Shown here piece after piece: positions 775-8,083 of a DNA stretch of 36,844 bases (positions are counted from its first letter, which is position 1; each line of letters begins with the position of its first letter). The stretch is from Bacteroidales bacterium (GTDB lineage Bacteria > Bacteroidota > Bacteroidia > Bacteroidales > UBA932). The notes under the pieces are model-generated. The model was not told the origin of the DNA. It worked only from the letters and a program-made list of their open reading frames with translations, and made no database searches. The position numbers and the translations under genes are program-made. Location: positions 1-36,844 of the forward strand of contig JAFUJQ010000030.1 in NCBI GenBank assembly GCA_017473705.1, given 5' to 3'.

Positions 775-1476
775 TTAATCCATAGAAATAGAACCAACTA
801 CAAGTGCCACTCTTGCAATTTCATCCAAAGGAACAATCCATTCAGGATAATCAGGATTAATGGGCTTTACGGTTATTAAAATGGTGTTCTGGCGATGTTC
901 ATACACTCTTCCTATTATAAGCCCCTGGTGACATGTAAGAAGTGCATATATTCTTCCCCATTGGTAAAAGTTGCTAAACTTTACATTACGACATGCTATA
1001 AGGTCGCCAGATCTATATTTGGGAGCCATGTAGTCTCCTTGCATTTTCATCAGGAAGTCGGCGTTACGAAATTCTTTTATATAGTAAAATTCATCTGCTT
1101 CAATCGTTGAAGGGTCTTCCGGATCTATTGCTGCAAATGCCAATTCATGAACTACAGGAATCTTTCCTCCGTTATCATTGTTGACATAATCAAATTCATC
1201 TGTATGCGGTAAATCGTTTTCGCCGGGTTTCAGATTTTCTGAACTAATCATATCACCTTCTCCGGTTAACAACCATTGTGATGATATATTGTATTCGGAT
1301 GATAGTCCCGCAAGCATTTCTGTGCCAGCCTTCATGCGACCTCCCAGAATTTCTGAAAGTTTAGATGCCGAAATTCCTAAATCGCTCGCAATGCTGGATT
1401 TTGTATGTAACTGCCCATTACTCAATAAGTAGCCTATCGCGTCAAGTGCGCGGTTGTTGATGCTTTCACGTGTCAT
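775..1476 (-). CDS. Lysogeny repressor: HTH plus S24/LexA-like domain lacking catalytic Ser and Lys
   Basis: A 233-residue protein facing the left end, as the Mu c repressor does. Residues about 10-70 form an XRE-like helix-turn-helix region (SIASDLGISASKLSEIL). Residues about 105-233 form an S24 peptidase/LexA C-terminal domain. The usual GDSM motif reads G147-D-Y149-M, so the nucleophilic serine is tyrosine, and the region where the catalytic lysine is expected reads LIIGRVY. Self-cleavage therefore looks lost and induction would need another route. ATG at 1476 sits directly beside the operator repeats, so autoregulation is likely. Confidence 0.8.
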   Translation of the reverse strand: MTRESINNRALDAIGYLLSNGQLHTKSSIASDLGISASKLSEILGGRMKAGTEMLAGLSSEYNISSQWLLTGEGDMISSENLKPGENDLPHTDEFDYVNNDNGGKIPVVHELAFAAIDPEDPSTIEADEFYYIKEFRNADFLMKMQGDYMAPKYRSGDLIACRNVKFSNFYQWGRIYALLTCHQGLIIGRVYEHRQNTILITVKPINPDYPEWIVPLDEIARVALVVGSISMD

Positions 1477-2244: not shown

Positions 2245-2277
2245 TTTGAGAAAAACAATAGTTTGGGCATAAATTTG
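2245..2277 (+). promoter_or_regulatory. Promoter upstream of the tRNA-like RNA and transposase
   Basis: TTTG (2245-2248), a 21-bp spacer, then TAAATTTG (2270-2277), a full match to the Bacteroidota TTTG/TAnnTTTG promoter. Transcription would start at about 2283-2286, giving a leader of about 30 nt before the cloverleaf at 2314. It could drive a separate RNA, the A-B operon, or both. Confidence 0.65.
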
Positions 2278-2313
2278 ATTTATGCGAAAAAACAAAGGCT
2301 CTGGACATGGCCA

Positions 2314-2395
2314 GCCGACTTGGTTCAGTGGTAGAACATCGGGGAGGAAGGAGGTGGTATCCCGAAGGTCAGCGGTTCGAATCCGCTAGTCGGTT
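2314..2395 (+). ncRNA. tRNA-like RNA with a 17-nt anticodon loop containing a Shine-Dalgarno sequence
   Basis: A full cloverleaf can be drawn. The acceptor stem is 2314-2320/2388-2394 (7 bp, first pair G-U). The D-arm is GTTC-AGTGGTA-GAAC (2323-2337). The anticodon stem is TCGGG/CCCGA (2339-2343/2361-2365). The variable loop is 5 nt, the T-stem AGCGG/CCGCT and the T-loop TTCGAAT (2376-2382). The anticodon loop (2344-2360) has 17 nt instead of 7, is almost all purine, and contains AAGGAGGTG (2348-2356), which can pair with the 3' end of 16S rRNA. CCA is not encoded. It should not decode normally. It lies 33 nt before the transposase start, so RNase P/Z processing would also trim that mRNA. Confidence 0.7.
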
Positions 2396-2428
2396 CAAGA
2401 TATTATAAAGTATTAGAACAGTGTTATA

Positions 2429-4501
2429 ATGGAATTCTTAGGTAAAGCGATAGCGGTGACAGTGGCAGAACTGACGAGGTCAGACGACGGGGCGGCGGTA
2501 ATAGCGTACGAGGCATACAGAAGCCTTGCCCGCAGGAACAGCCTGGTTGTCCTCCGTCCGGGTAAGGGCCTTGCTCACCCTGCGCTTATCGACTGGAATT
2601 CTCTTCCGGTGAGATTCAAGGAGGCTTGGATAGACAAGTACGGAGATCCTAACGACCAGAGGAAGGAACAGATGGAGGAACTCCGCTACGATGTGGACGC
2701 CATGGCGTTCTTTGCCGGTTATCAGTTGGCTGACGGTACATACCTCAAGTCTGCTCATCAGAGCGAGTATGTGCTGAACGCCACAGTGCTCAACAGACTT
2801 GTAGAGATGGCCGGAGACCAGAAGGAAGTCAGATCGCGCTGTAACATGACTTCAAGAATCAACTGGGAAGGCATATATAATGAATGCGAGTTCCTGAGAC
2901 TTCAATATGGTCACACTTTGCCTAAGAATGAGGCAAGACTTCGTGACAAGATCCGTCAGTACAAGGCTGAAGGCTACGAATGCCTCATCAGCGGAAAACT
3001 GTGCAACAGCAGTGCAGTCAAGATCACCCCTGAGGCGGGCCGTCAGATCATCGCTCTCAAGCGCAGCAGGTTCCCTCGTCGCACGAATGCACAGATATTC
3101 GAAGAATTCAACAGGATAGCGGAGACCAAGGGCTGGAAACCGCTGAAGTCCCTTTCTAGCCTGGTGCAGTTCCTGAGCCGTCCGGAGGTGGAAGTGATGT
3201 GGAAGGATGTCGAGATCGGCGAATATGCCCTCAATATGAGGACAAGGCGTCAGAACAAGACAGTCATGCCTTCGCTCCGCGACAGTATATGGTACGGTGA
3301 CGGTACGAAACTCAACCTGTATTACAGGGTGCTCGACTCCAGCCGGGGGGGGTGGAAACTAGCCACTACATCAGTATTTGAGGTTGTAGACGCAGCCACT
3401 GAGTGCCTCATCGGCTATCACATCTCGCCTAACGAGAACTTTGAGGCCATGTACGAGGCTTATCGCCAGGCAATAGAGTTTTCCGGCCATCTTCCTTACG
3501 AACTCGTGTTTGACCAGCAGGGAGGATCCAAGAGGTGCGACGCACAGGACTGGTTCTCAAGGATCGCGACACTGTCACGCCATACTGCACCGGGAAACGC
3601 GCCTTCAAAGTCTATAGAACTTCTCTTCAATCATTTCCAGAGCCAGGTGCTTTTCCAGAACGTGAACTTCACCGGCATGAACATCACCTCAAGGATGGAA
3701 AAGTCTCATGTGGACATGGAATTTCTCCTTGCCAATGTCGACAAACTGCCTACCTATCAGGAGGTATGTCAGATATATGCGGAATGCCGCAGGACATGGA
3801 ATGCCATGCCTCACTCCAAGACCAAGGAGGCAAGAATGGAGATGTACATGTCGCAGGTCAATGACGCGACAGTGGTGGTGACAGAGGGAATGAAGAAGAA
3901 TCTCTACATGGTGAAGTCCAACAAGCCTGTCAAGGTTACCAATCACGGCATCGTCATCCAGATCAGGAATGAGAAGTTCACCTATGAGGTCGTGGACGCT
4001 GCCGGCATGCCGGATCTGAACTGGCTGCACAGGAATCTCGGCAGAGGTGTATTCGTGGAGTATGACCCTCATGATCCTACCGCAGACGTCCGTCTCTACA
4101 CCAAGGACGACTATGGTTTCAAGTACCTCTGCGATGCGAAGGAATACACAGTCATTCACAGATCCATGCTGGAGCAGACTCATGAGGAGCGTGTCTTCAT
4201 GCGGCAGATGGAGTGGGAGAACAAGGTGATGAGGGTTACGGAATGGCTTGAGAAGCGAGACCTTGAGTTTGAGCATGGTGTGGCTCCGGAGCAGCATGGA
4301 TTTGTGACGCCGAACATCAAGGGCGTATCCAACAAGGAATTTGAGCAGATTCTAGAACAGATACTGACAGAACGTGCAGCGGCTAACACTAAAGAACTTC
4401 CTGATGAAGCGGCACATGTATATCCGGACAGTATCGGCAAGATTCAGAAGGAGATCAGCAACACCACCATGGACAGGGCGTCATTCATGAGCCTTCTTTA
4501 A
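2429..4501 (+). CDS. MuA-type DDE transposase
   Basis: A 690-residue protein close to the length of MuA (663). It catalyses donor cleavage and strand transfer for integration and replicative transposition. Visible acidic residues are D291 (WYGDGTK), D362 (VFDQQGG) and E397 (PSKSIELLF), giving a D-71-D-35-E pattern; the E motif resembles MuA KPIERAF. The N-terminal 250 residues are helical and basic, as expected for the end- and enhancer-binding domains, and a beta-rich domain (about 480-570) follows the core. The C-terminus (about 590-690) would contact the B ATPase. Gene B follows after 28 nt. Confidence 0.9.
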   Translation: MEFLGKAIAVTVAELTRSDDGAAVIAYEAYRSLARRNSLVVLRPGKGLAHPALIDWNSLPVRFKEAWIDKYGDPNDQRKEQMEELRYDVDAMAFFAGYQLADGTYLKSAHQSEYVLNATVLNRLVEMAGDQKEVRSRCNMTSRINWEGIYNECEFLRLQYGHTLPKNEARLRDKIRQYKAEGYECLISGKLCNSSAVKITPEAGRQIIALKRSRFPRRTNAQIFEEFNRIAETKGWKPLKSLSSLVQFLSRPEVEVMWKDVEIGEYALNMRTRRQNKTVMPSLRDSIWYGDGTKLNLYYRVLDSSRGGWKLATTSVFEVVDAATECLIGYHISPNENFEAMYEAYRQAIEFSGHLPYELVFDQQGGSKRCDAQDWFSRIATLSRHTAPGNAPSKSIELLFNHFQSQVLFQNVNFTGMNITSRMEKSHVDMEFLLANVDKLPTYQEVCQIYAECRRTWNAMPHSKTKEARMEMYMSQVNDATVVVTEGMKKNLYMVKSNKPVKVTNHGIVIQIRNEKFTYEVVDAAGMPDLNWLHRNLGRGVFVEYDPHDPTADVRLYTKDDYGFKYLCDAKEYTVIHRSMLEQTHEERVFMRQMEWENKVMRVTEWLEKRDLEFEHGVAPEQHGFVTPNIKGVSNKEFEQILEQILTERAAANTKELPDEAAHVYPDSIGKIQKEISNTTMDRASFMSLL

Positions 4502-4529: not shown

Positions 4530-5393
4530 ATGATTACCAAAGAACAGAAGAGCAGAATCCAGCATCAGTTAGATGCTCACTGCGCACGGTACAGCAGTCA
4601 GAACAAGGCTGCGAATGCACTGAAAGGCGTGTCTGTTGCCGTCATCAGCGACATCCGCAACGGCAAATGGGACAGGATCTCGGATGACATGTGGCGCAAA
4701 CTGGAGAGCCAGTTGGTGGCCTCAGGTGAATGGAAGGTCTACGGTACCACCGCCTACAATCAGATGATGTGCTATCTCGACAGTTGCAAGAACGACGGTC
4801 TCGTGATGTGGGTCGTGGCTCCTGCAGGTACGGGCAAGAGCACTGCTGCAATGGCCTTCCGCAACGAGAACAGGAACGTCTTCGTGCTGACATGCAGCGA
4901 GGATATGAACAAGACCTCATTCGTGAGGGAACTTGCGGCCGTCATCGGAGTCAAGGCCGACTGTCTGCCGGTCCGTGAGACCCTGGCCGCGATAGTCAAG
5001 GAACTTGTCAGGATGGATCATCCGGTGCTTATCTTCGACGAGGCCGACAAGTTGACCGACAGGGTTCTGTATTTCTATGTGTCACTCTACAATGCACTCG
5101 AAGGCAAGTGCGGCATGATGCTTCTCTCGACGCACAGTATCCGTCGCCGCATGGAGCAGGGTATCCTCAAGCAGAAGAAGGGCTATGACGAACTCGACAG
5201 CCGCATCGGACGCCAGTTCGTGCCTCTCAAGGCGGTGACTACCGATGAGGTCGCAGAGATATGCCGTGCCAATGGTCTGCAGAAGCAGGAGGCCATCAGC
5301 AAGGTGACGAAGGAAGCCGCAGAGGTGTCGAACGACCTCAGAAGAGTCAAGAGATCAGTTTACAAGGAACTTCAGCAGTTGGTGCTGTTTTAA
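4530..5393 (+). CDS. MuB-type AAA+ transposition ATPase
   Basis: A 287-residue protein. In Mu, B binds target DNA as an ATP-dependent filament, stimulates A and gives target immunity. Residues about 20-60 form an HTH-type region (ANALKGVSVAVISDIRNGKW), as in MuB. Walker A is APAGTGKST (about 97-105) and Walker B is VLIFDEAD (D170, E171). A sensor-like LLSTHS motif follows, and the C-terminus is basic and helical. It lies directly downstream of the transposase in the same operon. Confidence 0.88.
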   Translation: MITKEQKSRIQHQLDAHCARYSSQNKAANALKGVSVAVISDIRNGKWDRISDDMWRKLESQLVASGEWKVYGTTAYNQMMCYLDSCKNDGLVMWVVAPAGTGKSTAAMAFRNENRNVFVLTCSEDMNKTSFVRELAAVIGVKADCLPVRETLAAIVKELVRMDHPVLIFDEADKLTDRVLYFYVSLYNALEGKCGMMLLSTHSIRRRMEQGILKQKKGYDELDSRIGRQFVPLKAVTTDEVAEICRANGLQKQEAISKVTKEAAEVSNDLRRVKRSVYKELQQLVLF

Positions 5394-7816: not shown

Positions 7817-8083
7817 ATGAAGAGATATACCAAGGAAGAGATCGAGCGCGAGGCGCTCTCTCTTGCAAAAAAGATAAAGAGAAATGAGGAGGCGAAGCCT
7901 GATGATCAGGTTGACCACTCCGTGACTGTACTGATCGAGAAGGATAAGGCCGTGATGGTCTGCGGATCGGCCGGACTTCTTGAGGATATGTTTGTCGAGA
8001 TTCTCAACAGAAGACCTGAAATGCGGCAGGTTCTTGAGAATGCTATCTATAGGTATGGACAGAGAAACACCTGGAAAATTTAG
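7817..8083 (+). CDS. Small hypothetical protein
   Basis: An 88-residue protein, MKRYTKEEIEREALSL, with AGGAGG at 7805-7810, 6 nt before ATG. The N-terminus is a charged helix. The second half (VTVLIEKDKAVMVCGSAG, then LEDMFVEILNRRPEM) looks like a small alpha/beta domain. It follows the DUF3164 gene by 10 nt and is part of the same transcript. Function unknown. Confidence 0.55.
   Translation: MKRYTKEEIEREALSLAKKIKRNEEAKPDDQVDHSVTVLIEKDKAVMVCGSAGLLEDMFVEILNRRPEMRQVLENAIYRYGQRNTWKI

Follow-up and report, generated by a model that had tools for sequence, protein, structure and literature searches.

tRNA mimics in front of MuA-like transposase genes in transposable phages of Bacteroidota

The window (the whole stretch of DNA analysed, 36,844 nucleotides) is part of a 2.35-Mb assembly and holds a Mu-like prophage. 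Small early ORFs lie between its repressor and transposase genes, and a tRNA-like element sits between the ORF at 1927-2226 and the transposase ORF, which starts at 2429; the element thus stands just before the transposase gene, as the earlier note had placed it. The features of the locus are as follows.

775-1476, minus strand: S24-type repressor gene
1927-2226: ORF on the upstream side of the tRNA-like element
2245..2277, plus strand: Bacteroidota-type promoter match (TTTG at 2245-2248, 21 nt, then TAAATTTG at 2270-2277)
2314..2395, plus strand: tRNA-like element, a cloverleaf with a 17-nt anticodon loop (Rfam RF00005; related elements at the same site in other phages)
2314..2320, plus strand: 5' strand of the acceptor stem (pairs with 2388-2394, one G-U)
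2323..2337, plus strand: D arm with GGTA in its loop (sequence, Rfam)
2339-2343/2361-2365, plus strand: anticodon stem (read from the sequence)
2344..2360, plus strand: 17-nt anticodon loop (sequence, Rfam)
2345..2356, plus strand: 12-nt stretch complementary to the 3' tail of host 16S rRNA (two G-U, -18.2 kcal/mol)
2371..2387, plus strand: T arm with loop TTCGAAT (motif and stem kept across the class)
2388..2398, plus strand: 3' strand of the acceptor stem, then N73 (T) and CAA (resembles the 3' end of host tRNA genes)
2399..2428, plus strand: A/T-rich linker (34 nt from the acceptor end to the ATG)
2429..4501, plus strand: MuA-like transposase gene, the presumed target of the element
4530-5393: AAA protein gene, at the place expected for MuB

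At 489-577, near the prophage's left end, (TTT)AGAGGGTC occurs five times; these copies likely represent transposase-binding end repeats.

The Rfam tRNA model RF00005 spans the full length of 2314-2395 (56.8 bits, gathering threshold 29, E = 7.9e-10); the insert in this match falls at the anticodon loop. The acceptor, D and T arms are all present, conserved loops included, so the tRNA fold with intact arms and a 17-nt loop described in the earlier note is borne out, with the stems as it gave them. That note also held that the RNA could not act as a normal tRNA, and indeed a 7-nt anticodon loop with a readable anticodon is absent and ARAGORN called no tRNA for 2314-2395. The minimum-energy fold of the 82-nt piece is the cloverleaf, its folding energy being ordinary relative to shuffles (z = -0.38); in the 145-nt leader 2284-2428 the lowest-energy fold differs, and the centroid retains the D, anticodon and T arms. 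Folding energy, ordinary for the single elements folded, was discarded as evidence. The nearest host tRNA is tRNA-Thr(CGT), identical at 52 of 72 aligned positions, a match that is only suggestive of descent from a host tRNA gene. The exact D-arm pattern of the element was found in no viral contig, and blastn against phages gave short matches only, some of them inside tRNA genes.

The window element is one of a class of tRNA mimics that precede MuA-like transposase genes in transposable phages of Bacteroidota. We gathered transposase homologues from whole genomes, IMG/VR, GTDB contigs and phage records, taking the best 80 loci from each of two large homologue scans, and searched the region before the presumed start codon in 211 loci, 184 of which have distinct 200-nt upstream regions. 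T-loop elements were found in 52 of the 184 distinct regions, compared with 13 of 3680 shuffles, by a detector that required a T stem, a T-type loop of 7 nt and an acceptor helix stacked on the stem. A first detector, which also rewarded a tRNA-like 3' tail, gave 52/184 at a threshold of 16, with 1/920 shuffles and 0/184 reverse complements as controls. When every form is counted and three loci added by hand are included, 74 regions carry an element; the other 110 have no recognised element, which indicates that the transposase gene can do without one.

The T loop also comes with its stem when stems play no part in the search. Of 47 TTCRANY motifs located 25-75 nt before the start codon without any stem criterion, 41 are flanked by a perfect 5-bp T stem; in coding sequence the corresponding figure is 9 of 296, and further upstream it is 13 of 77. 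The untuned Rfam tRNA model matched 4 of 18, 10 of 20 and 8 of 20 loci in three sets that were partly chosen for having elements and in which a few loci are one phage twice; every match was upstream of the transposase gene, and four phages in the third set that were expected to lack an element gave no match. A model built from 16 minihelices matched elements outside its training set (for example L172, L140 and L232), and with it we found the element of Elizabethkingia phage TCUEAP3 (L268). All six of the Porphyromonas gingivalis phages examined, from ten listed, carry the same kind of cloverleaf. Within the literature searched, from which the source survey of the DUF2693-FD family (see below) stood apart, we found no description of such a class, and the available portions of the hankyphage paper (PMC12135933) and of the P. 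gingivalis phage paper (PMC10367356) do not mention the element.

The mimics come in four forms. In the first, a cloverleaf has an odd anticodon domain (the window, L009, L074, the group L011/L012/L032/L077/L089, L010 and L034); in L010 and L034 an H-type pseudoknot, with changes that compensate one another, can be read by eye in this domain. The second is a minihelix of acceptor, short loop with GG, and T arm. The third is a hairpin with a CTGACC-type loop and an N-C-(C/A)-A tail, found at 15 loci, four of which also have the first form, and measuring 12-13 bp in 12 of the 15. The fourth, at eight loci, has an AGCGATA-type loop. These forms interchange among phages whose transposases are 81-85% identical (L083/L084, L108/L109, L169/L173). 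Tandem mimics occur at L102, L103, L105 and L107, where a T-loop element lies about 90-105 nt upstream and is followed by a CTGACC-type hairpin; at these four loci the 12-13-bp hairpin ends in CCCAG and the start codon follows directly.

The earlier note had proposed looking for stem covariation in related elements, and this is present. Thirty different T stems occur in 41 loci with their pairs kept. In a MAFFT alignment of the 16 minihelices, 96.2% of cells pair, compared with 73.8% after shuffling, and 8 of 10 pairs show changes on both sides. The covariation score is 0.563 (shuffled 0.145, with 0 of 500 shuffles reaching 0.563; at most 0.142 for slid partners). These alignment figures are overstated, since the rows were partly picked for pairing; the motif-only TTCRANY test is free of that. 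These data bear on whether the elements are merely decaying, functionless tRNA genes tolerated before the transposase gene. The range of forms from near-canonical cloverleaves (L063 and L084, with CAU loops) to bare hairpins, together with the tRNA-Thr(CGT) match of the window element, would suit such decay; the strong covariation, the many T stems with pairs kept and the conserved position nevertheless make it highly improbable.

We found that the acceptor/T-arm half and the tRNA-like 3' end are kept and that the anticodon domain is freely replaced. The transposases of L265 and L266 are 99.0% identical, and the anticodon domain is short in L265 and large, with further hairpins, in L266. Likewise, the window and its nearest relative, L009 (transposase 87% identical), have dissimilar elements between similar flanks, and the L009 element contains no Shine-Dalgarno (SD) match. 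According to the earlier note, homologues with a standard 7-nt anticodon loop would point to a local insertion or an assembly error in the window. Such loops do occur, in the more distant L063 and L084; even so, the number and variety of the odd anticodon domains are too great for assembly errors.

The place of the elements is narrowly set: 46 of the 52 T-loop elements end 14-34 nt before the start codon and the remaining six at 91-115. An ORF of at least 50 codons ends no more than 45 nt from the start codon in 79 of the 110 regions without an element and in 8 of the 74 with one, a contrast that is partly trivial because the element needs room. Scanning 247 genomes of the order with the minihelix model gave eight matches in seven genomes. 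Six of them precede a transposase-type gene, one at a distance of about 0.33 kb and one (L254) with the gene type judged by eye from a cut N-terminus; of the other two, one lies before a DnaA-C-domain gene adjoining a DUF3164 gene and one beside a DUF3164 gene. Mimics also stand before non-transposase phage genes at L260 (1501-1546), L232 (4959-5001, before an ORF) and L015 (468-517, before a small early ORF). From these placements we conclude that the element travels with early phage genes, mostly the transposase gene.

The earlier note assigned the element a promoter of its own at 2245-2277. The match is there, and it is not conserved: a forward TAnnTTTG within 70 nt upstream was present for 1 of the 52 elements, that of the window, which rules out a conserved forward promoter as a feature of the class. 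The reverse of the Bacteroidota -7 box, CAAAnnTA, was observed at 15 of the 52 elements (for example L012, L044, the L072 region and L224), in 14 of these 15 at a nearly constant distance of 5-8 nt upstream of the element, an arrangement that resembles a leftward promoter abutting it. The leftward ORFs at these loci are small and differ between phages.

Constancy of place beside variability of sequence also bears on a possible operator function, in which the transposase or a host tRNA-binding protein would bind the mimic and repress or tune translation. tRNA mimicry in an mRNA leader has a precedent in thrS of E. coli, and the element stays adjacent to the gene in phages of many hosts. A protein that reads sequence is nevertheless hard to fit, since from one close relative to the next both the acceptor and the anticodon sequences are replaced, and other genes are preceded by elements too; we therefore hold an operator to be quite unlikely.

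The conserved parts of the elements are those of an RNase P substrate. C74 is present in 43 and A76 in 44 of the 52 elements; the T-C-A-A tail of the window element includes C74. In 27 host tRNA genes recovered from 20 stretches, C74 is invariant (27/27) and CCA is encoded in 7/27. Host RNase P RNA contains GGGGGUAGGC, in which, by our reading of the sequence, GGU pairs with the tRNA 3' end. The window element thus combines stacked acceptor and T stems, a T-type loop and C74 with a GGU partner in the host. RNase P cuts acceptor/T-arm hairpins, the phage M3 and C4 RNAs and mRNAs (PMC11143913), and it can dispense with the D-loop while requiring a T-loop or something similar (PMC4919913). The acceptor, with a possible -1:73 pair counted, measures 7-8 bp in 32 of the 52 elements, 6 in 10, 5 in 3 and 9-10 in 7, and the first C-N-A falls at the tRNA position in 27 of the 52 only.

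Because the parts that RNase P reads are kept and those that it ignores are lost, we regard a cis-acting leader of the RNase P type as the best explanation, with a probability of roughly 0.5. In this reading RNase P, perhaps with RNase Z, would define where the transposase mRNA begins; the cleavage itself is what we infer. Host RNase P would recognise the mimic and cut at its 5' edge; in elements that do not encode CCA, a cut at the 3' edge may be made by RNase Z. Cleavage would free the transposase message from the variable upstream region, so that the AUG would be preceded by a short leader with a defined shape. Since this does not need the anticodon domain, that domain could drift or be swapped. 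Processing by RNase P/Z was one of the options named in the earlier note, and the kept parts agree with it. Several observations sit less easily with an RNase P leader: varied acceptor lengths contradict a strict 12-bp ruler, single-element fold energies are ordinary, the longer window leader folds better in another way, and 110 of the 184 regions have no recognised element. A plain processing signal would also leave the closeness to the AUG and the strength of the SD match in the window unexplained.

That SD match lies in the anticodon loop. The window has a single copy of AAGGAGGTG, at 2348-2356 (0.41 copies expected; at least one copy in 37 of 100 shuffles). The earlier note understated the complementarity: AGGAAGGAGGTG at 2345-2356 forms 12 bp with the 16S tail of the host itself (GGAACACCTCCTTTTT, as read from the genome, where the mature end may differ), at -18.2 kcal/mol. 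Pairing as good was reached by 61 of 20000 loop shuffles, by 0 of 36827 other plus-strand 17-mers and by five on the minus strand; when the tail was shortened in two ways, the loop was equalled by 86 and 65 shuffles and by 4 and 5 other plus-strand 17-mers. The start of host rpsU (L392) carries AAAAAGGAGGTG, an extended SD of the kind described for Bacteroidota, and the rpsU leader pairs with the 16S tail at -17.9 kcal/mol. In Bacteroidia, bS21, bS18 and bS6 normally sequester the anti-SD, and ribosomes without bS21 translate rpsU by means of an extended SD that forms 9-13 bp at -14 to -21 kcal/mol (PMC9976891). Judged by its 12 bp, by the host rpsU value and by the published range, the window loop has the strength of rpsU. 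It differs from the rpsU SD in lying within a tRNA-like loop and 72 nt from the start codon (2356 to 2429), against a usual SD spacing of about 5-10 nt.

Before the window ORFs starting at 7817, 9913, 5710, 21290, 9689 and 33481 we observed SD-like matches of about -9 to -12 kcal/mol, calculated with a tail ending in UUUCU where that of the host is UUUUU. AGGAGG occurs 46 times in the window and 20.5 times in shuffles, twice as frequently.

Pairing with the 16S tail does not extend to the class. Among 33 elements with inserts of at least 22 nt, the inserts showed no pairing trend with the host 16S tail (mean z = -0.12) or with a consensus tail (mean z = -0.02), 2 of 33 reaching p <= 0.05 in either case; the window insert gave z = -3.9 or -4.2, depending on the tail used. 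This result ruled out SD action as the function of the class. AGGAGG is overrepresented in the inserts (8 of 33, with 0.675 expected), the eight representing about three lineages. AAGGAGGT was also found in apparently ordinary tRNA genes, many of them tRNA-Ser-like, and a pattern of SD plus T-loop occurred in at least 120 stretches of viral contigs; among the 80 of these made into loci, 20 structured matches resemble tRNA genes. The idea that the element stands in for a normal SD was likewise rejected, SD-like 4-mers preceding the start codon in 12 of 74 regions with an element and 19 of 110 without.

The observation reported in the earlier note was therefore confirmed, and its interpretation held in part. 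The fold, the 16S match and the tie to the transposase gene were supported. The SD as the essence of the element was not, given the 33 inserts, the minihelices without an anticodon domain and L009, in which the motif, whose conservation in relatives the note had proposed to check, is absent at 87% transposase identity. We read the SD match as a feature of the window phage laid on the class, with a possible role, and not as the reason for the element.

Two further alternatives were considered. In the first, a tRNA-shaped leader would dock on the 30S subunit near the mRNA exit and aid initiation 15-30 nt downstream, the window loop serving as a standby site for the 16S tail. The spacing of 14-34 nt in 46 of 52 elements, the mimics before other early genes (L015, L232, L260) and the rpsU-strength match of the window are consistent with such recruitment. 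An SD so far from the AUG and absent as a class feature, the similar incidence of SD-like 4-mers with and without an element, and the normal sequestration of the Bacteroidia anti-SD (PMC9976891) all weigh against it, and we consider it rather unlikely. In the second, the excised element would act in trans as a small RNA, either titrating or unmasking a target, which would be the 16S tail or some other factor that handles tRNA. An excised tRNA fold would be stable, and the window loop has the pairing energy for this; the fixed place before the start codon, L009, the 33 inserts and the minihelix forms, which have no loop to display, make it very unlikely. The decoy and the displacement of the occlusion suggested in the earlier note belong here; a place before the start codon that is kept while the sequence is replaced favours a cis-acting leader over a free decoy RNA. 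Under the RNase P reading, the anticodon domain of the window phage would have acquired an extended SD of rpsU strength, and ribosomes whose anti-SD is free, for example those without bS21, may in addition be preferred. A lineage-specific tie of the window element to such ribosomes is possible.

Some known systems resemble the class. Plant RNA viruses have tRNA-like structures and tmRNA has a tRNA-like domain, all of them acceptor/T-arm mimics without a decoding anticodon. Those mimics are at RNA 3' ends or form a separate RNA, whereas the class elements lie before a start codon of a DNA phage. Plant viral tRNA-like structures and tmRNA are listed as RNase P substrates in PMC11143913. The phage M3 RNA, the C4 antisense RNA and the mRNA substrates treated there share with the class a tRNA-like or hairpin RNA, acceptor/T-arm geometry and a tRNA-like 3' end; the present class differs in being tied to the start of the transposase gene or a few early genes and in its very variable sequence, and its cleavage is putative. 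Mu and D3112, the sole phages of another phylum examined, have the same order of repressor, small early genes, A and B, but their gene A abuts or overlaps the preceding gene and no Rfam match was found there. The transposase genes of hankyphage p00 and Winogradskyella phage Peternella_1 are also of the abutting kind.

An orphan Rfam family, the DUF2693-FD RNA (RF02926), reportedly stems from a 2017 survey. It has two stacked stems, of 7 and 5 bp, and a loop of 7 nt, dimensions that match the top half of a tRNA. L169 (2928-2978), which has the AGCGATA-type form, was the sole scanned locus above its cut-off (56.3 versus 44.5 bits); L028 and L024 match weakly, and the window matched RF00005 only. 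In the 247 genomes, the single match to RF02926 scored below the cut-off; it lay within a same-strand ORF and was judged false. The L169 match at the site of the class elements, together with the likeness of stem and loop sizes, suggests that DUF2693-FD may be a mimic of the tRNA top half.

Taken together, these data point to an overlooked class of tRNA mimics that DNA phages carry in their mRNA leaders. Such elements readily escape notice, since their sequences cannot be aligned and a tRNA finder passes over them. The class offers a meaning for the orphan family DUF2693-FD and presents a tRNA scaffold that is kept while its anticodon domain is exchanged. It occurs in a phylum whose ribosomes largely ignore SD sequences. 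A further reading, which we regard as unlikely, treats the tRNA-shaped leaders as translation-start modules, the window loop reading the anti-SD at rpsU strength so that transposase would be made when bS21-lacking ribosomes appear; if this is true, transposition would be coupled to the state of the host ribosomes. The finding allows a direct test of whether transposase is expressed by way of RNase P or by way of specialised ribosomes.
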